From Bacteroidales bacterium (lineage in GTDB: Bacteria; Bacteroidota; Bacteroidia; Bacteroidales; Tenuifilaceae): a stretch of DNA of 64,000 nucleotides. The notes beneath the pieces are model-generated. The model was not told the origin of the DNA. It did not search any database and saw only the letters and a program-made list of their open reading frames with translations. The position numbers and the translations under genes were made by a program. This document shows positions 8,333-43,600 of the stretch, piece by piece; position 1 is the stretch's first letter; each line of letters opens with the position of its first letter. The stretch is taken from positions 1 through 64,000 of the forward strand of contig JANYLA010000050.1 of assembly GCA_025361485.1 (NCBI GenBank), in the 5' to 3' direction.

Positions 8333-8352
8333 TAATAAGTAATTTATATTTA

Positions 8353-8805: not shown

Positions 8806-8882
8806 TGCCTAGAGTACTTAAAATGCCTAGAGTGCCTAAAGTTACAAGATTTTAACTTTAGGCACTCTAAATTCTAGGCACT
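8804..8882. terminator. Nested inverted repeat, probable bidirectional terminator
   Basis: A perfect 17-bp inverted repeat (8828-8844 and 8853-8869, 8-base loop) lies inside a second 10-bp pair (8804-8813 and 8873-8882). The left side is built from near-identical units TGCCTAGAGT (8806-8815 and 8824-8833) and TGCCTAAAGT (8833-8842). It fills the whole gap between the convergent DUF3795 and rubrerythrin genes, so it can end transcription both ways. The modular copies suggest it derives from an interspersed repeat and is not a simple terminator. Confidence 0.7.
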
Positions 8883-8891
8883 TTTCTTACT

Positions 8892-9470: not shown

Positions 9471-9602
9471 AATGGTTATAGCGTTAAATTTAGAATCGTA
9501 TCAAAATTAGTAAAAAAAGTATGTGGATTGATTCCAAATTACTAATCGATTGTTTAGGCGAAGCGTATCAGGCTTTAAATAATGTCATCACATGAAGTTA
9601 TA

Positions 9603-9629
9603 AAAAAGCGGTCTGTTAAGCCGCTTTTT
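9603..9629 (-). terminator. Rho-independent terminator
   Basis: A 9-bp stem AAAAAGCGG (9603-9611) / CCGCTTTTT (9621-9629) with a 9-base loop. On the minus strand it ends in a T-run and lies about 35 bp after the membrane-protein gene ending at 9665, so it probably terminates that transcript or the M1-peptidase operon. Confidence 0.75.
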
Positions 9630-9664
9630 CTTGTGTGAATTAAAAAGTTTTTTTACGATTCCGT

Positions 9665-10519: not shown

Positions 10520-10542
10520 CTTTTTAATATTTTAATTGTTGA

Positions 10543-12558
10543 CTATGAGAATATTGAGAATGATTGCATCAAATTTTGCAACATAAAAAGAAACTTTAAC
10601 GCAAATTTCCATGCGGTTGATTTCTTAGGTTCCAGAGTTAGGCTATTATTCATCAGGTTTACATCCATAAGTATCTTATTTTCAGGATCGACTTTTGCCC
10701 AAACAATCTTAGCCGGTTTTTGGTATGAAAAATCAAACGACCGTGCCTTACCATCCCAAATTTCATGAACTTCATCACCATTATCGAATTTAATCAGCAC
10801 ATCAATGGGTAAACAAATCTCGCCAAGACGATTTAAAACAACTTTTGATTTATAAATTTTCGTTTTGGAAACACTATCCTTAAGCATAACCTTTTGTCCA
10901 TTAACATCAACAATACCTTTATCAGAAATAACCTCATTATTCTCTATTGATGCAACCATATAGTCGCAAGTATTAGTGCCATATAAAACCTGATCGAAAT
11001 ACCAGTTCATATTCTCACCAAATTTATTTCCATGGTTTTTTGCAACAACTTCATTAACTATTGCTATAAAATCAGTTGCGCAAGGATGTTTGAATTTCCA
11101 TCGGTTATAGTATGTTTTCACTATCTCATCCATGGTTTCTCGACCAACCAAATTGTCAAGTGTATTCATCCATGTAGATGCCTTCATGTAGGATAAGTTA
11201 CCATATCCACCATGTTTATAATCCCACGAATAGCGGAAATTTTCAGCAATTTTTGGGTTGCGCATGGCAACATAACCATTTCGAGTATTTTCACCATCGC
11301 CCATCTTTAGCCCTAAAAAATCAACAAGCGATGATTTATCACCATATGCATAATCCATTATTCGGGTTTCAAAATAGCTATTAAAACCTTCATCTAACCA
11401 AGGTTTCTCAAACTCATTCGATGCAAGAATACCCATAAAGTATGCATGACCAAATTCGTGAATAGTAACCATTTCGGTAAACCTTAACCCGTAAGGCATA
11501 CCCCATAAACAATCGGCTGTAATGAATGTAGTATACTCCATACCACCAGCACCCATTCCTCTAAAGGGGGGATCAACAATAGTTAAATATGGATAAGGAT
11601 ATTCTCCGAGATGCTCTTCGAAATATTTAAGAGCGATAATAGCTGAGTTGATATGCCTATCGGCCTGACTAAAATGCTCAGGCTGGAGAAGAACTTTAAT
11701 CTTTACATGTTTGTACTGACTTTCAGCTATTTGAAAACGTGGTGAAGCAGTCCAAGCAAAATCTACGATATCCTCTGCTCTGTAATTTAAGGTTTTGGTA
11801 CCATCTCCATTATCCTTCACCGATTGAAGTAAACCACCGCTTCCAACTTCAAACTTATTTGGCAGAGTTATATTTACATTATAAACGCTAAAGTTTGAAT
11901 AGAATTCCGAATTAGCATGAAACTGATGACAATTCCATTGTCCTTTTATCGCATACCGCTGTCCTTTAGGTTCATAAACACCAATTTTTGGAAACCATTG
12001 TCCAACCAAGAAGAAATCATCACTATAACCAGTACGTGCAAATATTTTAGGGAGTTTAGATACAAACTTTATCTCCAGCTGTATCTCCTCGTTTGGTTTT
12101 ACTGGCTTTTCAAGCATTACAGATATAACTGTTTGATCATCTGGGTTGTTATCATCCGGATGAATAAAAACTATTTTGCTTGTCAGCACCTCGCCTCCAA
12201 CTACTTTCATACTAAGCACATCGATATAGCCCCATTCCTCCATTTTTGATTCATCCAAACTAAATCCTCTATGTGAACCACCCGATTCATGCATAAAGGT
12301 TGATTTAGTATTCTTAAACGCGTTCAGATATAAATGGAATTGGAGTTCACTAACGAGATCGGTTGATGGATTCCTCCAATGTAAAATCATATCCCCATCA
12401 ATAAGTCTTTTATCAGGATTCAATTTTACAGACATATCATAGCTTGTAATTCTTTCGCTATTAGGCTTTGAAAAAATGTCTGCCTGTGCGATGGACACTT
12501 GATTTATGCTCATTAAAAGACCTATCAATAAGCAAATGTTCTTAAATACTGTTTTCAT
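10543..12558 (-). CDS. M1-family zinc metallopeptidase, exported
   Basis: This gluzincin has HEFGH with His367, Glu368 and His371 and, 18 residues later, Glu390, the third zinc ligand (WLDEG). The segment GMGAGGMEY upstream corresponds to the substrate-binding GAMEN-like motif. The N-terminal beta domain occupies about 30-240. A signal peptide (about residues 1-24, ending VSIAQA) predicts export to the periplasm or outer membrane. The reading frame is open to a TTG at 12579, but the ATG at 12558 places the signal peptide correctly, so I use it. The last 100 or so residues are non-catalytic. M1 enzymes remove N-terminal amino acids from peptides. It is followed by a membrane-protein gene in a probable operon. 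Confidence 0.88.
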   Translation of the reverse strand: MKTVFKNICLLIGLLMSINQVSIAQADIFSKPNSERITSYDMSVKLNPDKRLIDGDMILHWRNPSTDLVSELQFHLYLNAFKNTKSTFMHESGGSHRGFSLDESKMEEWGYIDVLSMKVVGGEVLTSKIVFIHPDDNNPDDQTVISVMLEKPVKPNEEIQLEIKFVSKLPKIFARTGYSDDFFLVGQWFPKIGVYEPKGQRYAIKGQWNCHQFHANSEFYSNFSVYNVNITLPNKFEVGSGGLLQSVKDNGDGTKTLNYRAEDIVDFAWTASPRFQIAESQYKHVKIKVLLQPEHFSQADRHINSAIIALKYFEEHLGEYPYPYLTIVDPPFRGMGAGGMEYTTFITADCLWGMPYGLRFTEMVTIHEFGHAYFMGILASNEFEKPWLDEGFNSYFETRIMDYAYGDKSSLVDFLGLKMGDGENTRNGYVAMRNPKIAENFRYSWDYKHGGYGNLSYMKASTWMNTLDNLVGRETMDEIVKTYYNRWKFKHPCATDFIAIVNEVVAKNHGNKFGENMNWYFDQVLYGTNTCDYMVASIENNEVISDKGIVDVNGQKVMLKDSVSKTKIYKSKVVLNRLGEICLPIDVLIKFDNGDEVHEIWDGKARSFDFSYQKPAKIVWAKVDPENKILMDVNLMNNSLTLEPKKSTAWKFALKFLFMLQNLMQSFSIFS

Positions 12559-15180: not shown

Positions 15181-15795
15181 TCAAATATTGCTATTTAAAT
15201 CATTTTGGCGTCGTGTGATGAACCAATTACTTGTATCGTTCTCTTTTTGTTCCGTTTTCGATTCATCGGTTTGTTCTAAATCGATATCCGAGAATAGAAG
15301 TAAGTGCATTGTCCTTATTGAATTTGCTAGCCTCATTCCCCAGTATTCCTGAAAATTTGTTCTGCATTCCCAAAGTGCATCGTTCATAACCTCAGCGTCG
15401 CCAGCCTGATAAAGCATGGTGAAATTCTTAAGATCCTGCCAAACATCGGTTAAATATTCTGCAATGCTTGCCGTATAAACACCATCCCCTTCATTCGCCC
15501 TCGGATCGTATATTTCAAGAAAATCATTGTTTGGGCCTAAGTTCTCTTTAAGGTTATTCTGAATCTCAAAATAAAACTCTTCGGTCACAAATTTTTCGTT
15601 CCCCTCATCGTATATTGGATCTGTCTCTGGGAGCAGAGATGCCTTGTAATACAATAGAGGAAGCAGTTTTTGAGATGCAGTAATGAATGATTTTCGATTG
15701 TGTGTTTTAATATTTTCAAGAAAGGCACAGTATTCTCTTGCAACAGTAGCAAATTCAACAACATTTCGGCTATACACTATGCTTTTTATATCCAT
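15181..15795 (-). CDS. DUF5063 domain protein
   Basis: The 204-residue acidic, helical protein matches the DUF5063 type I know from Bacteroidota. It has a four-helix-like pattern with FATVAREYCAFLE near the start, an acidic middle, and EYWGMRLANSIRTMHLLL near the end. No catalytic motif is obvious. It is the first gene of a three-gene operon with a DEDDy exonuclease (1 bp gap) and an RlmI-like methyltransferase. The spacing suggests it assists the exonuclease or RNA processing, but that is inference from context. Confidence 0.7.
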   Translation of the reverse strand: MDIKSIVYSRNVVEFATVAREYCAFLENIKTHNRKSFITASQKLLPLLYYKASLLPETDPIYDEGNEKFVTEEFYFEIQNNLKENLGPNNDFLEIYDPRANEGDGVYTASIAEYLTDVWQDLKNFTMLYQAGDAEVMNDALWECRTNFQEYWGMRLANSIRTMHLLLFSDIDLEQTDESKTEQKENDTSNWFITRRQNDLNSNI

Positions 15796-15836
15796 TTCAG
15801 TCTATTTGATTGTGATTTGTAAATATTTTAGAAATG

Positions 15837-15844
15837 CAAATATA
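15837..15844 (-). promoter_or_regulatory. Putative -7 element for the DUF5063 operon
   Basis: On the minus strand this is TATATTTG, an exact match to TAnnTTTG, about 40 bp before the DUF5063 start. No clear TTG lies at the right distance upstream, so support is partial. Confidence 0.35.
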
Positions 15845-15980
15845 GGAAAGTTGTTAAAGGTTACACTTACATTTTGAAGCCTTATTTTTATCAATGAATA
15901 GTTTTTGTACTCGTTAAAAATGAGACTAGGCATAAAGGTTCATGCCATTATAATTGAAACATAAAGTATTAATAGTAGAA

Positions 15981-18002
15981 TTAACCTAAGGGTAAAGTAA
16001 ATCTGAATGTAGAGCCTTTGCCAATTTCGCTTTCGATCCAAAATTCGCCATCGAGTTTTTTAATAAACTCTTTACATATTGTCAATCCAATCCCTGTCCC
16101 TTTCTCGTTAAAAGTGCCTAAGGTTGAATGGTTTATATCAGATATTAATAAGTTACTAATAAGCTCTTTGCCCATTCCAATACCATTGTCTTGAATAGAA
16201 ATCTCAGCGTGGTCTATAAATGATTTTGCAGAAACTTTAATTTCTCCCCCAGGATTTGAATATTTTATAGAGTTCGAAATCAGATTGCGAATTACGGTGT
16301 TCAACATGTTGGCGTCTGCAATTACATAAAATTCATCTATCGATTCGTAATGTAGTTTTACTCTCTTGTTGTTCGCGTGTGGGAAAAAAGTTTTAATATT
16401 TTCACTAATTACAGTTATAATACTTATTTTTTCTTTACTGACATTTACCTGGTGAGTTTGAGTTTTAGCCCAATTTAAAAGATTTTCAAGGATGCCCAAT
16501 GTGTTAATTCCAACTTCGTTAATTTGCTCATTCATCTCGACGATTTCATCTATACTTGATTTGTTAACATTCTCTTTAATATAGTTTGAGAATCCAATAA
16601 TTGAAGTAAAAGGAGATCTCAAATCATGCCCTATTATTGAGAATAATTTATCCTTCGTGAAATTAAGATTTGATAGATTGTCTGATTGTTTTTGAAGCGC
16701 ATCCCTTTGAGCCTCAATTTCTTCCTTTTGTGATTTAATTTCTGTATTCGCAATGGTTAATCCTGTATTTAATTCTGCAATTTCCTTTGTTTTTAGATTT
16801 AATGCTTTATAGGCTTGGTTTTTATCACGATAAAAAAATACAATTATTCCAATTAGCACTACCATCAAAAGGAAACCTACAATTAAAATATTTAACTGAG
16901 TTCGTTGATTGCTAATTCTTTCATTTAATATCTCTTCTTTCTGCTTTGTAATAATTTCCTGCTCTTTATTCTTAATTTCATACTTGTAGTTTTCAGTTAA
17001 TCTGGTAATTTTCTGAATATAAATATTGTTAGTGATACTATCTTTTATATTTGTTGCAAACTCCTGAAAATAGAGTGCCTTTTTGAATTCCCCCAGTTTA
17101 GAATAGGATAATTTAAGTCCTTCAGCTGCGTCCTTGTTAACTTGAGGAATCCCGAAACCTTTAATTAAAATCATGCTTTTCTTAAAGTTTTCTATTGCTC
17201 CATTATAATCTTTTTTTTGATTATCGTACTCGCCAAGACATTTATAAATATTAGCAATTCCTACATAATCATTCATCAGTTTAAATATCGCAAGAGATCG
17301 ATTGTAATAGATTAAACTGCTATCATAGCTCCCTTTTTTAAAATGAATTAATCCTATATTTAAATAGGAGGATGCAATACCGGTTTTTAATTTTAATTGC
17401 TTACGATATTCGAGTGATTTTCGAAATGAAACTAAAGCTGAGTCATCTTCTGAACTATTCATGTATATAAGGCCTAACATATGATAAATATAACTTAGGT
17501 TGTACTTATCATTTAGCTGAGTAGATATTTTCAATGCTTTATTAACATATTCTAATGCTTGATCATAAACACCTAATCGATTATAAATATCCCCGATGTT
17601 ATTGTATTCGAGTGCTTCAAGTTTGAGAAAATTACATTTTTCGGCAAGATCGAGCCCTTTGAAGTAGAAATCCATTGCCTTAGAAAAATTCCCTAGGTTG
17701 CGTTGGTAGATGCCTAAGCGACCAAGAATATCTGCCTGCTCGAATTTCAGGTTTTTATCAATTGCATTTTTAAGAGCCGTTTTACCAAAGGAAACGGCTT
17801 TTGTTGTATCAGAATTTCGGTACTCCCAGCTTATCTGCTTTAAAACAGCAACTCTGGTAGAATCTTTTACAGTATTTAGCAACTTTGATAAACTATCAAT
17901 AGTTGTTTGTTTTTGCGAATATGAATTGATTGAAAATGATAGAGAGAAAGTTATTGTTATGAGTAAAAAAAAATAAAAAATAATCCCTTTGTTTTTAAAC
18001 AT
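15981..18002 (-). CDS. TPR-containing sensor histidine kinase
   Basis: The 673-residue protein begins with a signal peptide (about 1-30). About eight tetratricopeptide repeats follow (about 60-330), recognisable by recurring units such as NNIGDIYNRLGVYDQALEY. Next come a coiled-coil, a single membrane helix (about 372-393), a second coiled-coil, then a HisKA domain with His459 in IIGHDLRSPF and a HATPase_c domain with DNGIGM and GTGIGLTICK. This architecture is common in Bacteroidota, where the periplasmic TPR part may sense proteins or peptides. No response-regulator gene is adjacent, so the output is unknown. Confidence 0.9.
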   Translation of the reverse strand: MFKNKGIIFYFFLLITITFSLSFSINSYSQKQTTIDSLSKLLNTVKDSTRVAVLKQISWEYRNSDTTKAVSFGKTALKNAIDKNLKFEQADILGRLGIYQRNLGNFSKAMDFYFKGLDLAEKCNFLKLEALEYNNIGDIYNRLGVYDQALEYVNKALKISTQLNDKYNLSYIYHMLGLIYMNSSEDDSALVSFRKSLEYRKQLKLKTGIASSYLNIGLIHFKKGSYDSSLIYYNRSLAIFKLMNDYVGIANIYKCLGEYDNQKKDYNGAIENFKKSMILIKGFGIPQVNKDAAEGLKLSYSKLGEFKKALYFQEFATNIKDSITNNIYIQKITRLTENYKYEIKNKEQEIITKQKEEILNERISNQRTQLNILIVGFLLMVVLIGIIVFFYRDKNQAYKALNLKTKEIAELNTGLTIANTEIKSQKEEIEAQRDALQKQSDNLSNLNFTKDKLFSIIGHDLRSPFTSIIGFSNYIKENVNKSSIDEIVEMNEQINEVGINTLGILENLLNWAKTQTHQVNVSKEKISIITVISENIKTFFPHANNKRVKLHYESIDEFYVIADANMLNTVIRNLISNSIKYSNPGGEIKVSAKSFIDHAEISIQDNGIGMGKELISNLLISDINHSTLGTFNEKGTGIGLTICKEFIKKLDGEFWIESEIGKGSTFRFTLPLG

Positions 18003-18020
18003 TGTGTGCTGTTTTATTTA

Positions 18021-18028
18021 CAAATATA
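18021..18028 (-). promoter_or_regulatory. Putative -7 element for the TPR kinase gene
   Basis: Minus-strand TATATTTG, an exact TAnnTTTG match 18 bp before the start codon. The region is very AT-rich, so chance matching is possible. Confidence 0.3.
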
Positions 18029-18239
18029 AAAAAATTAAAACAAAAACTCTTTTTTTGCTTGACATCCAGGTGCTTTATTCAAACTATTGGATATGATTCT
18101 TAGGTTGGATTATGAAATTCTTAGACCTAATTAGTATAACAACAATGTTGATATCGAAAAATTGCTTTAATTATGGGATAACTTGATTCAGATTCGAAAA
18201 AAGACAAGAGTATAAAATCCAATCAGATATTCAGCTGTA

Positions 18240-20144
18240 TTAATTCCTCCATGCCAACAACCCGTCTTCCGTTTTAACAACTTTTTTATTGTCTAACAGG
18301 AAATGAATTACCTTTAATGTTCTGTCAGACTTTAGTTTGATTGAATCAACAAGATGTTCAATGGTTGCTGGTTGTTGCAAAAGAATTAATTTAATCTTTT
18401 CCAAAATGTTATCAAACTCAATTTTACTGATATCAAGTTCATTGCGAGAGGTGCAAACATCGCATTTTCCACAGCGGACTGAACTTGTATCACCAAAGTA
18501 TTCAAGTAAAAACTGACTACGGCATTTGGTTGTAGTCGAAGCGTATTCAATTAGTGCATCGATCCGTTTCAAAAACCGTTCTTTCCTTAATTGATAGTTC
18601 TCGTAGCGAAGCAACAGGTTTTTTTCATCGAGCCGTTCTGTGGTAAAAATAACCAGCGGTGTTTTTTTTCTAGGAATATAGTTTATAATTTTCTGTTTGC
18701 TTAGTAATTTAAGGTTCTCAATTACATTTTTCAATGGAATTCCTGATGCTTTTGCAATATAAGCTTCATCAATATTTACGTATTGCGAAAAAACACCTGC
18801 AAACGCTCTGAGCAAAACCTTTATAAACTTATCCATTTCAGCATGAGCAACCTGATATTTGTAAAGGTCTTGCCTATCAATGGTAAAAATTAAACGGCTA
18901 GGATTATCGAGTTCATCGGTTAGCTCAATGTAGCCTTCTCTTTCGAGAAACTTTAAAGAGTTGTAGGCTTTTACCGTGTTAATCTTATAGGTTGATGCAA
19001 AATCCATTAGGTTGAAATCATAAATTTCACCCTTTCCTGCGCCAATTGCTATGTTGAGATATGAACCAAGCGCTTGATAGGTTCGTTTTATCTCATCTGT
19101 TTCGGGGAAATTGGCTGCAATTCGCTGCTCAATTTTAGATTTATCCGATTCGTTGTAAAGCAGAATTGCATATGCAAGGTTTAAATCGCGCCCTGCACGC
19201 CCTGCTTCCTGAAAATAAGCTTCGGGTGAGTCGGGTAAATCGGTATGGATTACAAAACGCACATTGGGTTTATCTATCCCCATACCAAATGCATTGGTCG
19301 AAACGATTACTCGCGTTTTTCCCTTTTGCCAATCATCCTGCCGGCTACTCCTCATATCGCCAGATAATCCTGCATGATAGAAATCGGCAGAGATGCCCTC
19401 TTTCTTCAGCATGAGAGCAATCTCCTTCGTTTTCTCTCTATTCCGGGTATAAATAATTCCGGTACCCGGAATGCCATTGATTATTTTGAGTAGATATTTG
19501 TTTTTATCCTCAATATTTCGAACCAAATAAACCAAATTTTTTCGTTCAAAGCTCATCTGAATGAGATTCTTCACTTTGAACTTTAACTTATCCTGAATAT
19601 CATCTGCAACCTCAGGGGTTGCTGTTGCGGTAAGAGCAAGAAACGGAGTATTGGGCAAAAGTTCTCGCAGTTCAGCAATCTTCATGTATGAGGGTCGAAA
19701 ATCGTAACCCCACTGAGATATACAATGCGATTCATCAATTGCAATAAGATTAACATTAAGCTTTCGAAGTCTAACCTTGAAGAGTTCTGTATCCAACCTT
19801 TCAGGCGAAAGGTAAAGAAACTTAAAATCACCATATGCACAGTTATCGAGTTGAATCTCTATCTCGTGGCGGGTCATACCTGAATGGATCGCAACAGCCT
19901 TTATGTCTCTTTTCTTAAGGTTTTCAACCTGATCTTTCATCAAAGCGATCAACGGTGTAACTACAATACAAATACCCTCTTTGGCTAGCGAAGGTACTTG
20001 AAAAGTGATTGACTTTCCGCCTCCTGTTGGCATCAGAGCAAGCGTATCGTGCCCATCGTATACCGATTGGATTATCTCCTCCTGTATCGACCTAAAGGTG
20101 CTAAAGCCCCAGTAACGGTGCAATATCTGCTCGAATCGGTTCAA
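18240..20144 (-). CDS. recQ: RecQ-family ATP-dependent DNA helicase
   Basis: The 634-residue protein has the RecA-like helicase core with Walker A PTGGGKS (39-45), the DESH box (137-140), an aromatic-rich loop QWGYDFRP and motif VI (QEAGRAGRD). The RecQ zinc-binding region follows, with cysteines in TTKCRSQF and CGKCDVC, then a winged-helix region. It lacks an evident HRDC domain, so it is a short RecQ form. RecQ unwinds DNA 3' to 5' in recombination and fork repair. The start codon is TTG at 20144; the following residues MNRFEQILHRYWGF are the expected RecQ N-terminus. Confidence 0.92.
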   Translation of the reverse strand: MNRFEQILHRYWGFSTFRSIQEEIIQSVYDGHDTLALMPTGGGKSITFQVPSLAKEGICIVVTPLIALMKDQVENLKKRDIKAVAIHSGMTRHEIEIQLDNCAYGDFKFLYLSPERLDTELFKVRLRKLNVNLIAIDESHCISQWGYDFRPSYMKIAELRELLPNTPFLALTATATPEVADDIQDKLKFKVKNLIQMSFERKNLVYLVRNIEDKNKYLLKIINGIPGTGIIYTRNREKTKEIALMLKKEGISADFYHAGLSGDMRSSRQDDWQKGKTRVIVSTNAFGMGIDKPNVRFVIHTDLPDSPEAYFQEAGRAGRDLNLAYAILLYNESDKSKIEQRIAANFPETDEIKRTYQALGSYLNIAIGAGKGEIYDFNLMDFASTYKINTVKAYNSLKFLEREGYIELTDELDNPSRLIFTIDRQDLYKYQVAHAEMDKFIKVLLRAFAGVFSQYVNIDEAYIAKASGIPLKNVIENLKLLSKQKIINYIPRKKTPLVIFTTERLDEKNLLLRYENYQLRKERFLKRIDALIEYASTTTKCRSQFLLEYFGDTSSVRCGKCDVCTSRNELDISKIEFDNILEKIKLILLQQPATIEHLVDSIKLKSDRTLKVIHFLLDNKKVVKTEDGLLAWRN

Positions 20145-33292: not shown

Positions 33293-34108
33293 TTAATTTG
33301 CATTAAAATAAATTCCACTTACTAACAGCCTGTTCGCTATTATTATGACAACCAACAAAAGGTATAACCAAAAATGTGGTCTATTCAAGGATTCAAACTC
33401 CTTATTAAAATTGTTATTGGGATAGATTTTTGTTAGAGCATTCCTATAACCCCAGAAGAAAGAGAAGGGCATACAAATAGGAGCAATTAAGCTTAATACA
33501 GCCTTAATAGGTAAATTTAAAAATGTTGTGATGATAATACCAATAAATATTGGGTAGAGTAATAATGAACGAATAAATTGGAATCTTAAATCTTTATTCT
33601 CAATTACCTCTCGTGAACCCATTTCAACAAAGTACTTTGCTTGGCTATTCATAAGAAAATACAACATAGCTACACCTGCTAATGCTATTAAAATAGTTAG
33701 CCAAATTGAGAAGCCAAGCGCATGACAAATATAACCAGTATCACCACCAGTAAACAAAGGCGCAACCATTAGATAGCCAAAAAAACCTATATAACCGAAG
33801 GAAGACATGTAAAGATTAAACAGAAATAAAGTATTTCGTTTTGTTTGAAGGGTGCAAATGAAATGAAAAAGCATTCCAATAGCTAAACTAACGAATGGAC
33901 CTGCGCTTTTAATAAAAAGTATGCTTTGCCGCGATAATCCAGCATCAATATTCGAAACATAATTATGGTGAATAGAGATACCTTTTGCTTGAACAATTAT
34001 TGATGCAAAGAAATGACCGAACTCATGCAATGTCATTGCCAATGTAGAGGCAACAACAAATAGAATCGATGAATTTATGATGATGTGTTTTTGTCTTATC
34101 AAACCCAT
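33293..34108 (-). CDS. M50-like integral membrane metalloprotease homologue
   Basis: The 271-residue protein has about six membrane helices. The first long one contains HEFGH (His28, Glu29, His32), the zinc site pattern of site-2-type M50 peptidases, and KSAGPFVSLAIG resembles the M50 AGP-N/S segment. A possible third ligand is Asp in FTGGDTGY, although the usual DGG motif is not clear. It may be an intramembrane peptidase or a degenerate relative. There are no PDZ or CBS domains. It stands alone, divergent from the electron-transfer cluster that begins at 34501. Confidence 0.6.
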   Translation of the reverse strand: MGLIRQKHIIINSSILFVVASTLAMTLHEFGHFFASIIVQAKGISIHHNYVSNIDAGLSRQSILFIKSAGPFVSLAIGMLFHFICTLQTKRNTLFLFNLYMSSFGYIGFFGYLMVAPLFTGGDTGYICHALGFSIWLTILIALAGVAMLYFLMNSQAKYFVEMGSREVIENKDLRFQFIRSLLLYPIFIGIIITTFLNLPIKAVLSLIAPICMPFSFFWGYRNALTKIYPNNNFNKEFESLNRPHFWLYLLLVVIIIANRLLVSGIYFNAN

Positions 34109-34500: not shown

Positions 34501-35370
34501 ATGTCAAAAACAGCTCATCGAATTTTCATTTTCGGAATGGCTCTTATCGTCATAGGAACCATTACGTTTCTATTTTATCTGGGGTTTTCCTACTATCAAA
34601 TCAGCTTAGAGGAGCGGTTTTTTGATCCGTCCAACACATTACTAAAACCAAGTGGCACATTGGGGCACGGCTTTGGAATTTTTGGTTCGTTGTTTATGAT
34701 ACTTGGCATTTTACTATATATGGCTCGTAAACGATTTCGTTCATTATCGCGGTTAGGCAATTTAAAGTACTGGCTTGAGTTTCATATTTTTCTTTGCACT
34801 CTGGGTCCAATTCTTGTACTTTTTCATACATCATTTAAATTCGGAGGAATTGTAGCAATTAGCTTTTGGAGTATGGTTGCAGTATTTTTAAGTGGAATCG
34901 TTGGGCGGTTTATCTATATTCAAATTCCTAGATCAATTGAAGGGAGAGAACTTAGCTTGAATGAGGTTCGGAATATGAAGAGTGATATTGGTGAAATAAT
35001 TCGTAATTCATACCAATTGGAAGAAGAAAGTTATAATACAATTGTAACATCTATAGGCAATAAGCCTGAGTTAAATCATGGCAATATTTTTGTTCGTACC
35101 ATCAGAAAATATTTCGATGATATTAAAACAATCCGATTAGTAAAACATGTTCTCAAGAAGAATAAACTTCCAAAATCTGAAATCCATAAGGTTGTTGGTT
35201 TAGTACAGAATGATATTTCCATAAATCGAAAGATTGAAAGGCTTGTAACAATGCAAAAATTATTCAATTATTGGCATGTAGCCCACCTACCCTTTGCGCT
35301 TGTTATGTTAATAATAATGGTTATTCATGTAGCAGTTACTATAGTTTTTGGATATAAATGGATATTTTAA
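34501..35370 (+). CDS. Membrane b-type cytochrome, probably di-haem
   Basis: The 289-residue protein has about five membrane helices. Two helices carry histidines at cytochrome-b spacing: His95-X13-His109 and His262-X13-His276. This would bind two stacked haems between the two helices, as in quinol-cytochrome c oxidoreductases and related proteins. Further histidines (56, 259) lie at membrane edges. A charged cytoplasmic-type loop of about 110 residues separates the two halves. Its stop codon overlaps the start of the FAD oxidoreductase by 13 bp, and three multihaem cytochrome genes follow, so it probably passes electrons across the inner membrane. I do not recognise a named family; the haem assignment is inferred from the spacing. 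Confidence 0.65.
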   Translation: MSKTAHRIFIFGMALIVIGTITFLFYLGFSYYQISLEERFFDPSNTLLKPSGTLGHGFGIFGSLFMILGILLYMARKRFRSLSRLGNLKYWLEFHIFLCTLGPILVLFHTSFKFGGIVAISFWSMVAVFLSGIVGRFIYIQIPRSIEGRELSLNEVRNMKSDIGEIIRNSYQLEEESYNTIVTSIGNKPELNHGNIFVRTIRKYFDDIKTIRLVKHVLKKNKLPKSEIHKVVGLVQNDISINRKIERLVTMQKLFNYWHVAHLPFALVMLIIMVIHVAVTIVFGYKWIF

Positions 35371-36695
35371 GTATGGAAATACTCTTTGAGGAAATTGCTG
35401 TTTATTCAATCGTTGCATTGCTTTGCATTGTGGTGGTGGTAATCTATTTACGAAAGCAAAGTCGCGAATCAAGAATCGTTAGCGCCAAAATAAAAAAAGC
35501 AAAAGAGGAAGGACTTTACGAGCCAGTTTCGCTTCATCCTGTTATAGATCATAACTGCATAAAAACAGGTGCTTGCATTGCTGCTTGCCCCGAACACGAT
35601 ATTTTGGGCATTGTTAATGGTAGAGCAACTACCATTAATGCCTCTCAGTGCATAGGACATGGAGCATGTTTTCATGCTTGCCCTACACAAGCAATAACAT
35701 TGGTTATTGGTACTGAAAAACGAGGAGTTGATCTGCCTCACATGAACCAAAATTTCGAAACCAATGTTCCGGGTATATTTATTGCTGGCGAATTGGGTGG
35801 AATGGGTCTTATTCGAAATGCTGTTGAACAGGGGAAACAGGCCGTTGAAAACATGGTTAAATCCATTAAAAAAGAACATGGAGCAATGTATGACATCGTC
35901 ATTATTGGTGCAGGGCCAGCGGGAATATCAGCATCGTTGAAAGCAAAAATGCTTAAACTCAAATCTATTATACTGGAGCAGGATTCATTGGGTGGCACCG
36001 TTTTTACTTTTCCTCGGAAGAAAATTGTAATGACAGCGCCTATGGATCTTCCGCTCTATGGAAAAATTAAACTTTTTGAAACAAGCAAGGGTGAGTTATT
36101 AGATTTATGGAATACCGTTTTGAAAAAAAACGATATTCAAGTTAAGGAACGATCCAAGGTAGAATCAATAGTTAATGAAGATGGTAATTTTAAGATTACC
36201 ACTTTGACGGGCGAGCATTACACAGCGAATAAAATCCTTTTATCCATTGGAAGACGCGGCACACCTCGTAAGTTAAATGTACCAGGGGAAGAAAGTGAAA
36301 AGGTTGCTTATCGTTTATTAGAACCCGAAATTATTGAAGGGAAAAACATTATGGTAGTAGGTGGCGGCGATTCAGCAATTGAATCAGCATTACTACTTGC
36401 AGATAAAAACAAGGTAACTTTATCATACCGAAGTGAAGCATTTAGCCGCCTAAAGCCTGTTAATAGTCAGAAAATTAATACTGCAATTGCAAATGAAACC
36501 ATCGATGTGCGACTAAGTTCAAACATTTTATCCATTGATAAAGATGATGTTACTCTTTCATCTGGAACTGAAAGCATAAAACTAGAGAATGATTTAGTCT
36601 ATATCTTTGCAGGAGGAGAATTACCAACCCAATTTTTGGAGAAAATTGGAATTACAATTACCAAGAAGTTTGGAGAAGCTGTATTGAAGCATTAA
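35358..36695 (+). CDS. Membrane-anchored ferredoxin-FAD/NAD(P) oxidoreductase
   Basis: The 445-residue protein has an N-terminal membrane helix (about 13-31) and a two-cluster ferredoxin-like region with Cys67/73/77 and Cys98/104/108. The position of the second cysteine in each CxxCxxCxxxCP motif is Thr70 and His101. Then come a TNVPGIFIAGELGG segment (135-148), the FAD site GAGPAG (184-189) and the NAD(P) site GGGDSA (335-340). In thioredoxin reductase-type enzymes the TxVPGIFAAGD segment ends the protein; here it precedes the FAD site, indicating a circular permutation. The gene overlaps the b-cytochrome gene by 13 bp. It may also start at ATG 35373. Likely role: electron entry from NAD(P)H or a ferredoxin. 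Confidence 0.8.
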   Translation: MDILSMEILFEEIAVYSIVALLCIVVVVIYLRKQSRESRIVSAKIKKAKEEGLYEPVSLHPVIDHNCIKTGACIAACPEHDILGIVNGRATTINASQCIGHGACFHACPTQAITLVIGTEKRGVDLPHMNQNFETNVPGIFIAGELGGMGLIRNAVEQGKQAVENMVKSIKKEHGAMYDIVIIGAGPAGISASLKAKMLKLKSIILEQDSLGGTVFTFPRKKIVMTAPMDLPLYGKIKLFETSKGELLDLWNTVLKKNDIQVKERSKVESIVNEDGNFKITTLTGEHYTANKILLSIGRRGTPRKLNVPGEESEKVAYRLLEPEIIEGKNIMVVGGGDSAIESALLLADKNKVTLSYRSEAFSRLKPVNSQKINTAIANETIDVRLSSNILSIDKDDVTLSSGTESIKLENDLVYIFAGGELPTQFLEKIGITITKKFGEAVLKH

Positions 36696-36715
36696 ATTGT
36701 TAAAAAAAATATTTC

Positions 36716-38533
36716 ATGCCCAATAAAATAAATATTTTTAGTTTGATTTTTTTATCTTTTGTAATCTCCTTTAGTAGCAGTTTTGCACAAATATCACCAG
36801 GAGAATTATCGAAAGTGCATTCCCATTTAGAAGGAATGACAAACTGCACACAATGTCATGTTTTAGGCTCAAAGGTGTCGAATGATAAATGCCTTGCTTG
36901 CCATTCCGAAGTTAAAGAGCGTATTAACCAACAAAAAGGATATCATTCATCAATTGAGGTAAAAGGGAAGGATTGTGTTAGCTGTCATAATGACCATCAT
37001 GGTAAAAATTTTCAAATTGTACATTTCGATGAGCTGCAATTCCAGCATAACCTAACAGGCTTTAAGCTTGAAGGAAAGCACAGCACAAAGAAATGCAACG
37101 ATTGTCATACTGCAAAAAACATTCCCAACGAAAAGATTAAAAATAAGTCATTTACCTTTCTTGGATTAAATACCCAATGTTTATCGTGCCATGTTGACTA
37201 TCACCAAAAAACACTTCCAAGCACTTGTGCTGACTGTCATGGCAATGAATCCTTTAAACCTGCTTCAAAATTTAGCCATGCTACTACAAAATTCCCGCTA
37301 ATAGGGAAACATCAAACTGTCGATTGTGCAAAATGCCATAAGATTGAGACAAAAGAGGGCAAGAATTTTCAGAATTTCAAAGGGGTTCAGTTTACCAATT
37401 GCACTAGCTGTCATAAAGATGTTCATGATAATAAATTTGGACAAAACTGTCGCCAATGCCATACCGAATCTTCTTTTCACGATATCAAAGGGACAAGTGG
37501 CTTTGATCATAGTAAGACCAATTTCAAATTGGAAGAAAAACATCTTAGCGTTAGCTGTAAATCATGCCATAAAACGAAATATACCGATCCTATTAAGCAC
37601 AATCAATGTATAGATTGCCATACAGATTATCATAGCGGACAATTTGCTCAATTAGGCGTATCGCCCGATTGCGCAAAATGCCATACGGTTAAAGGATTTG
37701 CTGAGGCAAATTTCACCATTGAGCAACACAATCTTGGCCCTTTTAAGCTAGAGGGATTACATCAAACCACAACTTGTTCAGCCTGCCACAAGAAAACCGA
37801 AAAATGGAATTTTAGAGAGATTGGAAAAACGTGCACCGATTGTCATACAGATTATCATAATGGTCAATTTACAAAATTAGGTTTACAGCCCAATTGCTCC
37901 GATTGTCATTCGACCAAAGGTTTTACAGAAGCCAGTTATTCCATTGCTCAACACAACCAAACTGCATTTAAATTGCAAGGTTCTCATGCAGCAACTCCAT
38001 GCTTTGAGTGTCACAAAAAAGAAGAGAAATGGAATTTTAGAAGCATTGGAAAAACGTGCACCGATTGTCACACAAATATTCATCAATCCTATATACCAGA
38101 GAAATATTTTCCTAATCAAAATTGCACCAAATGCCATACTGAAAACAACTGGAATAGCGTAACTTTCGATCATGCACAAACAAATTTTAAACTAACTGGT
38201 GCTCACTCAACAACTTCCTGTAGATCATGTCACTTTGGAAAAAAATTAGAAGGACATGACCTTCAAAAATTCACAGGACTATCAAATACCTGTAGTAGTT
38301 GTCATACTGATCATCATTTTCGACAATTTGAAAAAAATGGCAGCACAAATTGTACCGAATGCCATACCACAGAGAGCTGGAATGCAAAAGGTTTTGATCA
38401 TAATAAAACTGCATTCAAACTTGATGGAGAGCATCAAAATGTTGCTTGCACTAAGTGTCATAAACCGACTACGGATCAGAAATTTATTGTTTACAAAATA
38501 AAAGAATTCAAATGCGAATCCTGTCACTTATAA
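36716..38533 (+). CDS. Exported multihaem cytochrome c, 23 CXXCH motifs
   Basis: The 605-residue protein starts with a cleavable signal peptide (about 1-25, ending SSSFAQ) and contains 23 CXXCH haem-attachment motifs with regularly spaced free histidines that can be sixth ligands. The pattern of short motifs such as CTDCHTDYHNGQF resembles the cytochrome c3/c7-type multihaem fold. Internal repeats are visible: KLEGLHQTTTCSACHKK and KLQGSHAATPCFECHKK, each followed by KWNFR. It should be a soluble periplasmic electron carrier. It is 20 bp after the oxidoreductase gene and overlaps the next cytochrome gene by 22 bp, so all are one transcript. Confidence 0.93.
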   Translation: MPNKINIFSLIFLSFVISFSSSFAQISPGELSKVHSHLEGMTNCTQCHVLGSKVSNDKCLACHSEVKERINQQKGYHSSIEVKGKDCVSCHNDHHGKNFQIVHFDELQFQHNLTGFKLEGKHSTKKCNDCHTAKNIPNEKIKNKSFTFLGLNTQCLSCHVDYHQKTLPSTCADCHGNESFKPASKFSHATTKFPLIGKHQTVDCAKCHKIETKEGKNFQNFKGVQFTNCTSCHKDVHDNKFGQNCRQCHTESSFHDIKGTSGFDHSKTNFKLEEKHLSVSCKSCHKTKYTDPIKHNQCIDCHTDYHSGQFAQLGVSPDCAKCHTVKGFAEANFTIEQHNLGPFKLEGLHQTTTCSACHKKTEKWNFREIGKTCTDCHTDYHNGQFTKLGLQPNCSDCHSTKGFTEASYSIAQHNQTAFKLQGSHAATPCFECHKKEEKWNFRSIGKTCTDCHTNIHQSYIPEKYFPNQNCTKCHTENNWNSVTFDHAQTNFKLTGAHSTTSCRSCHFGKKLEGHDLQKFTGLSNTCSSCHTDHHFRQFEKNGSTNCTECHTTESWNAKGFDHNKTAFKLDGEHQNVACTKCHKPTTDQKFIVYKIKEFKCESCHL

Positions 38534-40401
38534 TTATCGCCATTTCAGTATTCCTGATTGCATGGTTCATTCCCTCGCCTCATGGTGCTGATTTTAAGAT
38601 TAGCTGTAATGTTTGCCACAGCCCAAAAGGATGGAAGTTAGATAAGGATATCTATTCTTTTAATCATTCTAAAACAAAACTTCCCTTGTTGGGGCAACAT
38701 ACAAAAACCGATTGCAAGCTGTGTCATCCTACTTTAGTTTTCTCTGAAGCAAAGGCTGAATGTGTATCTTGCCATAAGGATGTGCATGAATCCTCGGTTG
38801 GACCTGAGTGTAATCGATGCCACACCAATAATTCTTGGTTAGTACAGGACATAACCAGAGTTCATCAGCAAAGCCGTTTCCCTTTAGTTGGCGTTCACTC
38901 TACGGTTGATTGTAACCAATGTCATAAGTCTGAAACATTTCTGAAATTTGAAGTATTGGGAGCTGATTGTTTTAGCTGCCATAGCGATTTGTATGCTGCT
39001 ACAACTCAGCCTAACCATAAATCATCAGAATTTTCCACACAATGTAATGATTGTCATAGTATTTATTCAAAGAACTGGAGCGGCACAAATTTTAATCACA
39101 ATTTCTTTCCTCTAAAGCAAGGTCATGAAGGCGTTGCGTGTTTAAAATGCCATACAAACGGACAGTTTACAAAGATTCCTACAGAATGTTTTACATGCCA
39201 TCAAACGGACTACAATACAACTTCAAATCCCAATCACTTAGCCGCAAATTTTCCAACAACCTGTATTTCTTGTCATACAATATCACCAGGTTGGAAGCCA
39301 ACTTCTTTTAACCATTCTAATTTCCCGCTTACACAAGGTCATGCTCTAACTGACTGTGCAAAATGCCATGTAAATGGGAATTATTCGAATATCCCAACTG
39401 ATTGTTTTACATGTCATCAAACTGATTACAATGCAACAACAAACCCGAACCATCAATCGGCAAATTTCCCTACAAACTGTATTTCTTGTCATACAACATC
39501 ACCAGGTTGGAAGCCAACTTCTTTTAGTCATTCTAATTTTCCCCTTACTCAAGGTCATGCTCTAACCGATTGTGCAAAATGCCATGTAAATGGGAATTAT
39601 TCGAATACCCCTACTGATTGTTTCGTATGCCATCAAACAGATTATAATGCAACTACAAACCCAAATCATAAAGCCGTTAATTTCCCGACAACATGTAGTA
39701 CTTGCCATACAACTACCCCTGGATGGAAACCTGCTACCTTTAATCACACTAACTTCCCGCTTACTCAAGGACATGCAATTACCGATTGTGCAAAATGCCA
39801 TGTGAACGGTAATTATTCAAATACTCCAACTGACTGTTTTACATGCCATCAAACTGATTATAATTCAACTATAAATCCCAATCATAAAGCCGTTAATTTT
39901 CCGACAACCTGTAGTACTTGCCATACAACTACTCCTGGATGGAAACCTGCTACCTTTGATCACTCAAGTTTTCCGCTTAGTCAGGGCCATGCAATAACTG
40001 ATTGTGCAAAATGTCATGTGAATGGAAATTATACAAACGTTGCAAAGGATTGTATTACTTGCCATCAAGCTAATTACAATGCAACTAGTAATCCAATACA
40101 TTCCGCTTTAAACTTCTCAACCGTTTGTACTGAATGTCATACAACAACACCTGGATGGAAACCTGCAAGCTATAAACTTCACGATGCGTTATCTTTTCCA
40201 ATTTATTCTGGAAGTCACCGTGGGCAGTGGTCTAGCTGTATCGATTGCCATTCAAACACAAGTAATTATAAGGCTTTTAGCTGTACCAATTGCCATGAAC
40301 ATAATAAAACAGATATGGATCAGAAGCATAGCGGAGAAAGTGGCTACACTTATTCCAGTACAGCCTGCTTACGCTGCCACCCTAGAGGTTCTTCAAAATG
40401 A
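38512..40401 (+). CDS. Membrane-anchored cytochrome c, 25 CXXCH motifs, tandem array
   Basis: The 629-residue protein has an N-terminal hydrophobic anchor (about 3-20) followed by IPSPHG, which looks uncleaved. It has 25 CXXCH motifs. The head (7 motifs) is followed by five tandem 72-residue units (39136-40215 in DNA), each with three CXXCH motifs and three extra histidines, then a three-motif tail ending CLRCHPRGSSK. The 1:1 ratio of extra histidines to haems in the array fits bis-His ligation. It overlaps the previous gene by 22 bp and the next by 4 bp. Likely role: a long periplasmic electron-conducting chain tethered to the inner membrane. Confidence 0.93.
   Translation: MRILSLIIIAISVFLIAWFIPSPHGADFKISCNVCHSPKGWKLDKDIYSFNHSKTKLPLLGQHTKTDCKLCHPTLVFSEAKAECVSCHKDVHESSVGPECNRCHTNNSWLVQDITRVHQQSRFPLVGVHSTVDCNQCHKSETFLKFEVLGADCFSCHSDLYAATTQPNHKSSEFSTQCNDCHSIYSKNWSGTNFNHNFFPLKQGHEGVACLKCHTNGQFTKIPTECFTCHQTDYNTTSNPNHLAANFPTTCISCHTISPGWKPTSFNHSNFPLTQGHALTDCAKCHVNGNYSNIPTDCFTCHQTDYNATTNPNHQSANFPTNCISCHTTSPGWKPTSFSHSNFPLTQGHALTDCAKCHVNGNYSNTPTDCFVCHQTDYNATTNPNHKAVNFPTTCSTCHTTTPGWKPATFNHTNFPLTQGHAITDCAKCHVNGNYSNTPTDCFTCHQTDYNSTINPNHKAVNFPTTCSTCHTTTPGWKPATFDHSSFPLSQGHAITDCAKCHVNGNYTNVAKDCITCHQANYNATSNPIHSALNFSTVCTECHTTTPGWKPASYKLHDALSFPIYSGSHRGQWSSCIDCHSNTSNYKAFSCTNCHEHNKTDMDQKHSGESGYTYSSTACLRCHPRGSSK
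39136..40215 (+). repeat. Five tandem 216-bp units encoding three-haem modules
   Basis: Unit starts lie at 39136, 39352, 39568, 39784 and 40000, exactly 216 bp apart. Units 2 and 3, and 3 and 4, are very similar at the DNA level, pointing to recent in-frame amplification. The last unit diverges towards its end, where the array meets the tail. Each encodes 72 residues with three CXXCH motifs. Confidence 0.9.
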
Positions 40402-41438
40402 GAAAGAATAATACAATAACTCTTTTTTTAATCATCGGCGCAGCTGTGCTTATGATTGCTTGGTTTATTCCGTCACCACATGGGGATGATTTTAAGATAA
40501 GCTGTAATGTATGCCATAGTTCAAAAGGATGGTATGTTGATAAGGAGATTTATTCCTTTAATCACGATAAAACAAAAATGCCATTGTTCGGGCAACACAT
40601 CAAAGCAGATTGCAAAAGATGTCATCCAACGTTGATTTTTTCTGAAGCGAAAACGGATTGTATATCATGTCATAAAGATGTACACGAATCATCCGTAGGA
40701 CCCGATTGTAATCGCTGTCATTCAACTAACTCATGGCTAGTCGAAAACATTACTAAAATCCACCAGCAAAGCCGATTCCCTCTGGTTGGAATCCATTCCA
40801 CCGTTGATTGTTACAAATGCCATAAATCGGAAACATTTCTACGATTTGAGGCTATTGGAACCGATTGTTATAGCTGTCATAGTGCCATTTACTCTGCCAC
40901 AACCCAGCCAAACCACGTATCATCTGGTTTTTCGCAGCGATGTGATGAGTGCCATAATATCTATTCAAAAGAATGGAAAGGAGAAGGTTTTAACCATAAA
41001 TTTTTCCCTCTTACACAGGGGCATGCAATTTCAAGCTGTGAAACCTGTCATACAAATGGAAACTATTCAAATCTATCAAAAGCATGCGTTGATTGCCACC
41101 AAACAGATTATAATACAGCATCGAATCCAAATCATCAATCATTAAACTTTCCTACAACATGTAACGATTGTCATTCAACTCAAGTTGGTTGGAAACCTGC
41201 TGCTTATAAACAACACGACAGCCAATATTTTCCTATCTATTCAGGAGCACACAATGGAAGATGGGCTAACTGTACTGATTGCCATTCCAATACGAGCAAC
41301 TACACTATTTTTAGCTGTACCGATTGCCACGAACACAATAAAGCGTCAATGGATAGTAAGCACGATGGAGAAAGTGGATATTCTTACACTAGCTCGGCAT
41401 GTTTGCATTGTCATCCGAGGGGAAGTTCTGAAAAATAG
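40398..41438 (+). CDS. Membrane-anchored cytochrome c, 13 CXXCH motifs
   Basis: The 346-residue protein is a close paralogue of the preceding one: same anchor with WFIPSPHG, same seven-motif head, same tail ending CLHCHPRGSSEK. It has only one three-haem unit (from about 41034) against five, and 13 CXXCH motifs against 25. The difference of 12 motifs equals four units. The start codon overlaps the stop codon of the previous gene by 4 bp. It probably works in the same electron pathway, as a shorter connector or for a different partner. Confidence 0.93.
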   Translation: MRKNNTITLFLIIGAAVLMIAWFIPSPHGDDFKISCNVCHSSKGWYVDKEIYSFNHDKTKMPLFGQHIKADCKRCHPTLIFSEAKTDCISCHKDVHESSVGPDCNRCHSTNSWLVENITKIHQQSRFPLVGIHSTVDCYKCHKSETFLRFEAIGTDCYSCHSAIYSATTQPNHVSSGFSQRCDECHNIYSKEWKGEGFNHKFFPLTQGHAISSCETCHTNGNYSNLSKACVDCHQTDYNTASNPNHQSLNFPTTCNDCHSTQVGWKPAAYKQHDSQYFPIYSGAHNGRWANCTDCHSNTSNYTIFSCTDCHEHNKASMDSKHDGESGYSYTSSACLHCHPRGSSEK

Positions 41439-41456
41439 TTATTAATTTTTTTTACT

Positions 41457-43067
41457 ATGAGGTATTTAATCCTTGCATCTCTGATTATCATTTTTGCTGA
41501 GAATTCGAACGCACAAAAAAATGGCGAAACAGCAACTGGAAAAGTAAGTTACGTCAGTTCGCAGAATGTGTACGTAAAATTTGAATCGACTAAAAACATC
41601 TCTATTGGAGATACTCTTTTTGTAACAAGCGAAAACTTGTCAATACCAGCGCTGATAGTAACCAACATGTCATCTACATCTTGCGTATGCTCATCCATTG
41701 CAGGAGTTAATATAAATCTTGCATTGGAGATAGTTGCTAAGCATAGAGATAAAACAGCAAAAGTTATGAACAAGATCGCTGTAATTAAAGATAATAAATT
41801 GCCTCCATCTCATGAAGCCAAGGATAGCGTTTCGAATGTAAAAACAAAGCAAAGTGAGTTTAAAGAGAAGATTAATGGGAGTATTTCAGCATCGTCATAT
41901 TCAAATTTCTCTAGCATTAACACAACGAACTCAAACAGATTTCAATACAATCTTACGTTAAACGCTTTGAATATCAACAATTCAAGATTGTCTTTCGAAA
42001 CGTATACCTCTTTTAGATATAATCAAAACGAATGGAACTTGGTTAAAAAGGATATTTTTCATGCCCTAAGATTCTATAGCCTCAACGTTAAATACGATAT
42101 AACGAAGAACACCCAATTTAGCTTTGGCCGAAGGGTTAATTCAAAAATATCCAGCATTGGTGCAATAGATGGCGTTCAATTTGAAACCAAGATCAATCGG
42201 TTTTCGCTAGGTGCTTTTTTGGGTTCAAGACCCAACTATATCGATTATAATTTCGATTTAACGCTGCCTCAATTTGGTGCTTACATTGCTCATAGCTTTA
42301 AAATGTCGAATGGTGAAATGCAAAATACATTTGCGTTGGTCAACCAGATGAATAACTCCAAAACCGATAGGCGATTCGCTTACTTTCAGCACAGTAACTC
42401 ACTGATAAAAAATCTGTATTTCTACAGCTCATTTGAAATAGATCTATACAAGAACATAAATAACAAAGCACAAAATACCTTCTCGCTTACAAGCTCCTAT
42501 TTGTCTTTAAACTATAGGGTTTGGAAACGATTATCATTTTCAACCTCATATGATATTCGAAAAAGTGTAATTTACTATGAAACTTATAAGAATTTAATCA
42601 ACCAGTTTATCGAAACCCAAGCAAGGCAAGGGTTGAGTTTTCAGGCGAACTATAATTCATTGAAAAACATCTACTTTGGAATTAGAACTGGGTATCGTTT
42701 CCCAAGCAATAATTCAAAAGCCTCTAAAAATATTTATGGCTATGTTACTTTTAGCCGAATACCAATCTTAAACATCTCAACCACATTGGCTACCACGTGG
42801 TTACAATCAGATTATTTGACTGGTAAAATTTATTATATGAATATGTCGCGTGAGTTTTTTCACGGAAAATTTTATTCGGAATTAGGTTATCAGTATGTTG
42901 ATTACAACTTTGGAGGAGCGCTAACCTCATTAAAACAAAATATAGCAGACATTAGCATCTCGTGGAGAATATACAAGAAATTATCGAGTTCTATAAAGTT
43001 TGAAGAGACTTTTGAAAACAGGACCCGTTATAGCCGTTTGAATTTTCAGATCATTCAAAGATTTTAA
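41457..43067 (+). CDS. Outer-membrane beta-barrel protein of the cytochrome cluster
   Basis: The 536-residue protein has a signal peptide (about 1-19), an N-terminal small beta domain (about 20-100; TGKVSYVSSQNVYVKFE looks like an SH3-like fold), a charged linker, and a C-terminal region (about 135-536) of alternating amphipathic strands rich in Tyr, Phe and Asn that ends in Phe. These features point to an outer-membrane barrel. It lies 18 bp after the last cytochrome gene and is the last gene of the cluster. By analogy with porin-cytochrome conduits it could hold a cytochrome in the outer membrane, but no sequence identity with MtrB-type porins can be claimed by eye. Confidence 0.75.
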   Translation: MRYLILASLIIIFAENSNAQKNGETATGKVSYVSSQNVYVKFESTKNISIGDTLFVTSENLSIPALIVTNMSSTSCVCSSIAGVNINLALEIVAKHRDKTAKVMNKIAVIKDNKLPPSHEAKDSVSNVKTKQSEFKEKINGSISASSYSNFSSINTTNSNRFQYNLTLNALNINNSRLSFETYTSFRYNQNEWNLVKKDIFHALRFYSLNVKYDITKNTQFSFGRRVNSKISSIGAIDGVQFETKINRFSLGAFLGSRPNYIDYNFDLTLPQFGAYIAHSFKMSNGEMQNTFALVNQMNNSKTDRRFAYFQHSNSLIKNLYFYSSFEIDLYKNINNKAQNTFSLTSSYLSLNYRVWKRLSFSTSYDIRKSVIYYETYKNLINQFIETQARQGLSFQANYNSLKNIYFGIRTGYRFPSNNSKASKNIYGYVTFSRIPILNISTTLATTWLQSDYLTGKIYYMNMSREFFHGKFYSELGYQYVDYNFGGALTSLKQNIADISISWRIYKKLSSSIKFEETFENRTRYSRLNFQIIQRF

Positions 43068-43174: not shown

Positions 43175-43600
43175 ATGAAAAAACCGATTGTTAACCTACT
43201 CATTTCCTTATTACTGATTTTTATTATAACAAGTTGCAAACTTGATGGGAGTAGTTATACAAACGCACCTGTTATTATTCCTTTGACCAATTGGGAACTA
43301 CCCGATACATCAAAAGTATCTACTCCATTCGGCTTAACGTTGAATGCATCATTAACAAGTAGTTGTACTCATAATCTTGTATTTGGGGTTAATGAAGTTG
43401 CAAACTTTAAAAAAAAGGCCTTTGCTACTGCTGTGTACGAAAATAGCGGAGAGAACTGTAATCCAGTTGAATTACCATTTGATTCAACAATAGTTATCAC
43501 ACCTACATCGGCAGGAAAATACTATTACTATTTTTTAACCCTTGATGAAGAAAAGAAAGCGTTGATCTACTCTGTTGATTCAATAATTATTATTCCTTAA
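43175..43600 (+). CDS. Hypothetical lipoprotein
   Basis: The 141-residue protein has a lipoprotein signal peptide with lipobox IITSC (Cys about 21). The rest is beta-rich, with LTSSCTHNLVFGVNEV in the middle and GKYYYYFLTLDEEKKALIYSVDSIIIIP at the end as recognisable stretches; the whole could be a single Ig-like or C2-like sandwich. Two further cysteines could form a disulfide. I do not recognise a family. It follows the beta-barrel gene of the cytochrome cluster by 107 bp but has its own promoter-like sequence, so functional linkage is uncertain. Confidence 0.6.
   Translation: MKKPIVNLLISLLLIFIITSCKLDGSSYTNAPVIIPLTNWELPDTSKVSTPFGLTLNASLTSSCTHNLVFGVNEVANFKKKAFATAVYENSGENCNPVELPFDSTIVITPTSAGKYYYYFLTLDEEKKALIYSVDSIIIIP

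Follow-up and report, generated by a model that had tools for sequence, protein, structure and literature searches.

Organization of the operon

The window, a stretch of 64,000 nucleotides from a Bacteroidales bacterium, contains a run of six open reading frames at 34501-43067, all on the same strand, as claimed in a preliminary description of this DNA. The genes, hereafter named A to F, and a repeat array within one of them are as follows.

34501..35370, + strand: A, inner-membrane protein, probable dihaem cytochrome b (His pairs, hydropathy)
35358..36695, + strand: B, membrane-anchored ferredoxin-like protein with a permuted YpdA/TrxR-like FAD/NAD(P)H domain (Pfam, permutation test)
36716..38533, + strand: C, 23-haem c-type cytochrome with a signal peptide (CXXCH count, c7/c3 families)
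38512..40401, + strand: D, 25-haem modular cytochrome (CXXCH count, E-like haem spacing)
39187..40087, + strand: 216-bp tandem array in D encoding 3-haem modules, 4.2 copies (Tandem Repeats Finder)
40398..41438, + strand: E, 13-haem short paralogue of D (CXXCH count, spacing as in D)
41457..43067, + strand: F, outer-membrane barrel, N-terminal beta domain and 22 predicted strands (AlphaFold2 model)

Genes A and B overlap by 13 bp, B and C are separated by 20 bp, C and D overlap by 22 bp, D and E overlap by 4 bp, and E and F are separated by 18 bp. Junctions of 20 bp or less, as originally described, are found for A/B, B-C, D/E and E-F, but the C/D overlap is slightly longer. A promoter scan gave no excess over shuffled sequences. 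Direct counting of CXXCH motifs yielded 23 in C, 25 in D and 13 in E, reproducing the earlier total of 61. Residue-shuffled versions of these proteins contained on average 0.34, 0.31 and 0.17 motifs, respectively, with a maximum of 3, and no CXXCH was found in the other open frames longer than 100 amino acids of the window.

Two further genes flank the operon. Just upstream and divergently oriented, 33293-34108 encodes a multi-pass membrane protein with an HEFGH motif that resembles membrane metalloproteases. Just downstream, the open reading frame 43175-43600 encodes a lipoprotein-like product that has an ITSC lipobox and matches nothing in Pfam or NCBIfam; it was ruled out as a seventh part of the operon, since a near relative of the locus (L013) has no counterpart after F.

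The inner-membrane module

Protein A has about five transmembrane segments according to hydropathy and the structure model, no Pfam family above cut-off and no CXXCH motif. It is probably a dihaem cytochrome b, as first proposed, and carries two His pairs with a 13-residue spacing on two transmembrane helices. Cytochrome-b proteins hold two stacked b haems with such H-x13-H pairs on two helices. In each of the pairs H95/H109 and H262/H276 the two His lie 14 residues apart; all four are invariant in 40 homologues, and the pattern is retained in almost all distant ones. By the positive-inside rule, the loop charges of A put the long, basic loop that follows residue 143 on the cytoplasmic side. 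The structure model is of low confidence (pLDDT 73), too weak for a fold assignment, and its Foldseek matches are meaningless.

In protein B, Pfam detected Fer4 and Pyr_redox domains, in line with the proposed ferredoxin-FAD/NAD(P) oxidoreductase. The domain assignment holds, with two departures from the usual form: a non-canonical ferredoxin part and a circular permutation of the flavoprotein part. The Fe-S domain has six Cys, and B lacks the two complete CxxCxxCxxxCP motifs of a 2[4Fe-4S] ferredoxin. In the first motif, Thr/Ser replaces the second Cys at position 70; in the second, H101 occupies the second-Cys position. This His is invariant in 32 sequences and present in all distant B relatives with a readable motif. 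In the relatives whose loci have B as the last gene (see below), Cys is present in the first motif.

The permutation affects a segment at about residues 120-172, which normally forms the end of TrxR and here precedes the N-terminal FAD motif. The YpdA/TrxR-like full-length domain order FAD-NAD(P)H-FAD is not found in B as encoded and appears only after reordering. With the segment moved to the end, the YpdA model gave one full-length match (1-315 of 316, 166.8 bits); with the segment removed, the score was 150.3 bits. The nearest solved relatives of B are YpdA and TrxR-like ferredoxin-NADP reductases. B shares the flavin and NAD(P)H-binding fold with these reductases and with YpdA/Bdr, but is set apart by its circular permutation, its membrane anchor and its fusion to a ferredoxin domain that has His in a ligand position. 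A literature search, with most subscription journals outside its coverage, returned no permuted ferredoxin-flavoprotein. Beyond the Fe-S ligands, B contains just one Cys, located in the transmembrane helix, and a disulphide-reductase role is therefore unlikely. Because basic residues follow its single N-terminal transmembrane helix, the domains of B should face the cytoplasm by the positive-inside rule.

A nearly fixed cytochrome and a modular one

All three cytochromes, C, D and E, have matches in the c7/c3 families. Cytochrome C contains 20 haems in 68 of 89 copies and 23 haems in 15 of 89, and it has a weak, local similarity to the DmsE decahaem family. Haem numbers of D/E range from 10 to 64 in the 84 copies counted, and equal 1 modulo 3 in 64 of 86, including both D and E of the window. 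The haem spacing of these two proteins is identical except for four blocks inserted in D, each of 72 amino acids and 3 haems, which belong to the 216-bp tandem array (83% matches in Tandem Repeats Finder); in the close relative L013 the number of extra blocks is two. Because D/E counts are mostly 1 modulo 3 and block numbers differ between the window and L013, D grows or shrinks in 3-haem steps, with C nearly fixed in size. D and E are length variants of one cytochrome, and the 61 haem sites, although correctly counted, are therefore not a fixed property of the system. A C of fixed size could be fitted to a constant distance, for example that across the periplasm, leaving D free to vary outside the cell or as a store.

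Like the GSU1996-type c7-repeat nanowire cytochromes, D/E is a chain of 3-haem units. However, D matches the corresponding triheme nanowire-domain model only weakly (TIGR04257, 28.3 bits against a curated cut-off of 40 bits), and D/E varies widely in its number of units. Near-identical neighbouring modules occur in single D proteins, including that of the window. Within-gene homogenization as a general rule was rejected as weak, with a mean module identity of 42% within and 39% between proteins. In two other loci, L055 and L074, the D-type cytochrome runs to the end of the available stretch, with at least 62 and at least 69 haems, respectively. In most D homologues a signal peptide ends before a conserved SPHG; no clear cleavage site was seen in D and E of the window.

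The outer-membrane barrel

The AlphaFold2 model of F (mean pLDDT 82) comprises a small N-terminal beta domain and 22 strands, as expected for the outer-membrane barrel initially claimed. Foldseek retrieved only generic large barrels, for example pilus ushers and Occ porins, with TM-scores of at most 0.55. No Pfam family was detected at E up to 0.1 and no sequence relative was found in the PDB, so that F belongs to no known family, related or unrelated, in the libraries searched. A relationship to MtrB was not supported: there was no MtrB_PioB Pfam match and no PDB relative, and MtrB was absent from the 50 best folds. MtrB has 26 strands (PMC12133095) compared with about 22 in F; by standard barrel geometry, the backbone radius would be about 20 Å for F and about 23 Å for 26 strands.

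Respiratory genes of the host

In the few stretches of the host genome examined, a COX1 oxidase gene lies beside alternative-complex-III-like genes (NrfD and Fe-S), and NorB and a third COX1-family gene are also encoded. On another contig of the same genome (C81, L133), a cluster at 7193-11135 encodes a 7-haem cytochrome, a cytochrome b561, an Fe-S protein and NrfD, and resembles a quinone-linked multihaem complex. It is followed at 15459-18611 by a gene for a 1050-amino-acid fused ResB/cytochrome-c-assembly protein. From these genes the host looks facultative, and the operon need not be its main respiration because it has other chains for O2 and NO.

Conservation and gene order across Bacteroidota

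A scan with protein A, using one genome per species, identified 263 related stretches, of which the best 80 were examined for gene content. For 49 loci the sequence following A extended for 8.5 kb or more, and in 46 of them B, C, a D/E cytochrome and F were present after A. In the remaining three only F was absent, and one very large D, or D together with E, fills the available downstream DNA. We also evaluated co-occurrence in 296 Bacteroidota genomes with a completeness of 90% or more. Of these, 29 contained A, 28 contained B (E up to 1e-90) and 26 contained F, and every genome with B or F also carried A (Fisher p of 2e-38 for B and 3e-34 for F, which are indicative only, the genomes being related). 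A, B, C, D/E and F form a conserved functional unit, carried by about one tenth of the sampled genomes. The barrel gene adjoins multihaem cytochrome genes across genomes, as in porin-cytochrome systems, and barrel and cytochromes thus co-occur well beyond the window.

Two gene orders were observed in 20 loci from this sample, A-(TPR)-B-C-D-F and A-(TPR)-C-D-F-B, and the B tree separates the second at a branch with 100/99 support. The core set recurs, but not in one six-gene order. The preliminary description had read the order of the genes as matching an electron path from the cytoplasm to the outer membrane. Since the second clade has B last, gene order does not encode this path and was rejected as evidence for it; the match in the window is coincidental, and it is the protein inventory that supports a path from the inner to the outer membrane.

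The TPR gene encodes a membrane-anchored protein of about 200 amino acids, possibly a cytochrome maturation or assembly factor. It adjoins A in many distant operons, at L105, L107, L108, L109, L111, L113, L114, L115, L122 and L124 and is missing from the operon of the window. In one genome, A and the TPR gene lie about 15-20 kb away from B and F. L114 also encodes a second, shorter A-like protein (195 amino acids, 29% identical) with H-x13-H pairs, next to a 10-haem cytochrome, which suggests a related second system.

A candidate trans-envelope electron conduit

We consider it probable that the operon builds an electron conduit across the cell envelope. Several observations argue for this reading: the almost perfect co-occurrence of A, B and F in the genome sample; the H-x13-H pattern of A, the Fe-S, FAD and NAD(P)H parts of B and the 22 strands of F; and the long multihaem cytochromes C and D/E in a host that encodes the fused assembly protein. 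Other points count against it. Neither the sequence nor the fold of F resembles a known conduit barrel (Pfam, PDB, Foldseek), no lipoprotein or surface-anchoring signal was demonstrated on C, D or E, the model of A is of low confidence, and the host has other respiratory chains.

The variable length of D/E could also indicate that the cytochromes serve chiefly to store electrons or buffer redox state in the periplasm, with F an unrelated solute porin. The width of the envelope is constant while haem numbers vary from 10 to 64, and capacitor-like roles have been suggested for giant Bacteroidota cytochromes in the accessible text of a sludge survey (PMC11495043). We regard this as very unlikely: all 26 genomes with F also have A, and in most complete loci the F gene comes immediately after D or E, which is not the pattern of a general porin.

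The conduit remains our preferred reading, and its best-supported input would be an NAD(P)H- or ferredoxin-facing flavoprotein with a dihaem b protein, in place of a c-haem quinol dehydrogenase. Electron exchange with quinones is common among dihaem b proteins, and CbcL-type quinol oxidases pair b haems with multihaem c proteins (PMC6295460). A might accordingly be a quinol-oxidizing or quinone-reducing cytochrome b, with B feeding or tapping the quinone pool as an accessory NAD(P)H enzyme of an ordinary quinol-driven conduit. This seems somewhat unlikely, since 28 of the 29 genomes with A also have B and the two genes often share 13-23 bp, pointing to a tight A-B complex and not to an accessory enzyme.

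Comparison with characterized systems

The operon matches no characterized system among those tested, in agreement with the initial view that it has no named counterpart. MtrCAB, PioAB and MtoAB likewise encode multihaem c cytochromes with a large outer-membrane barrel. They differ in the barrel itself, in a 10-haem cytochrome where C has 20-23 haems and in CymA as inner-membrane input where B plus A are found here. Scores for an OmcA/MtrC-type extracellular decahaem cytochrome (TIGR03507) were 15.7-18.4 bits, far below the cut-off of 209. In the accessible descriptions of the Geobacter conduits OmbB-OmaB-OmcB, ExtABCD and OetABI (PMC6344600, PMC10553843), a barrel is likewise encoded with periplasmic and outer cytochromes in one operon. 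As described there, cytochrome sizes and partner genes are different, and no flavoprotein partner comparable to B is mentioned. CbcL, ImcH and CymA also pass electrons across the inner membrane to periplasmic cytochromes, and CbcL has b haems; their inner-membrane proteins carry c-type haems, whereas A has none of the CXXCH type and is paired with a cytoplasmic Fe-S/FAD protein. By these comparisons, the unit would work like a porin-cytochrome conduit, outside the Mtr/Pio/Mto family by the tests made and with a different inner-membrane input.

Earlier reports on Bacteroidota, as far as their accessible text goes, touch on similar genes. He et al. flagged putative new conduits in humic-lake Bacteroidetes from gene organization (PMC6344600). 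The sludge survey cited above reported hitherto undescribed Bacteroidota cytochromes whose haem motifs number over 100 and which are prevalent among Saprospiraceae. A seven-gene Bacteroidetes cluster comprises six cytochromes and a barrel (PMC8258643); it was rejected as the same arrangement, with no B-like gene in the accessible description. An Arctic soil study reported a 20-haem cytochrome of Maribacter (PMC3669403), which may be C. The accessible parts of the first three reports describe no A/B module, five-part unit or modular growth, and some of them probably concern the same system. Our literature search found no description of the A/B module or of the conserved unit, an absence that is weak evidence given that most subscription journals lay outside its coverage.

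Proposed mechanism

In the mechanism that we propose, NAD(P)H or reduced ferredoxin would deliver electrons to the cytoplasm-facing flavoprotein/Fe-S protein B, and the two b haems of A would move them through the inner membrane. Cytochrome C, nearly constant in size, would then conduct them through the periplasm. C and/or the modular D/E would thread through or dock on barrel F to reach the cell surface, where Fe(III) or Mn oxides, humic matter or a partner cell could serve as acceptor. D/E would act as a linear wire or a store whose length changes through tandem duplication of the 3-haem module. The sequences themselves show the genes, haem sites, domains, conserved ligands, permutation, modular growth and co-occurrence; we infer the topology, the order of electron transfer, its outward direction, the acceptor, the seating of a cytochrome in the barrel and the independence from quinones.

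Sequence gives no direction, and the same conduit might run inward, from Fe(II), a partner cell or another donor through F, D, C and A, with B reducing NAD(P)+ or ferredoxin. B resembles reversible ferredoxin-NADP reductases, and related porin-cytochrome systems, Pio and Mto among them, operate in either direction (see also the accessible text of PMC6344600). However, uphill reduction of NAD(P)+ from donors in the Fe(II) range by way of b haems would need energy, the operon has no coupling subunit, and the bacteria appear to belong mainly to organotrophic lineages. Inward flow thus seems improbable.

With outward flow as the preferred direction, we tentatively put forward a broader possibility. 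This would be a phylum-wide, quinone-independent route leading directly across both membranes, in which electrons of NAD(P)H or ferredoxin would pass by way of a permuted flavoprotein, its Fe-S cluster having a His ligand, and a dihaem b protein to a cytochrome wire whose length evolves by duplication of modules. What is known of extracellular electron transfer comes mainly from Shewanella and Geobacter, whose proteins are the ones that genome surveys look for. A distinct conserved set in about one in ten sampled Bacteroidota genomes would escape searches of this kind and could give these polymer degraders a direct part in the respiration of iron, manganese and humic matter; A, B and F are ready markers for it. 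With its 10 to 64 haems, cytochrome D offers a graded range of natural wires on which the dependence of conduction on length can be tested.
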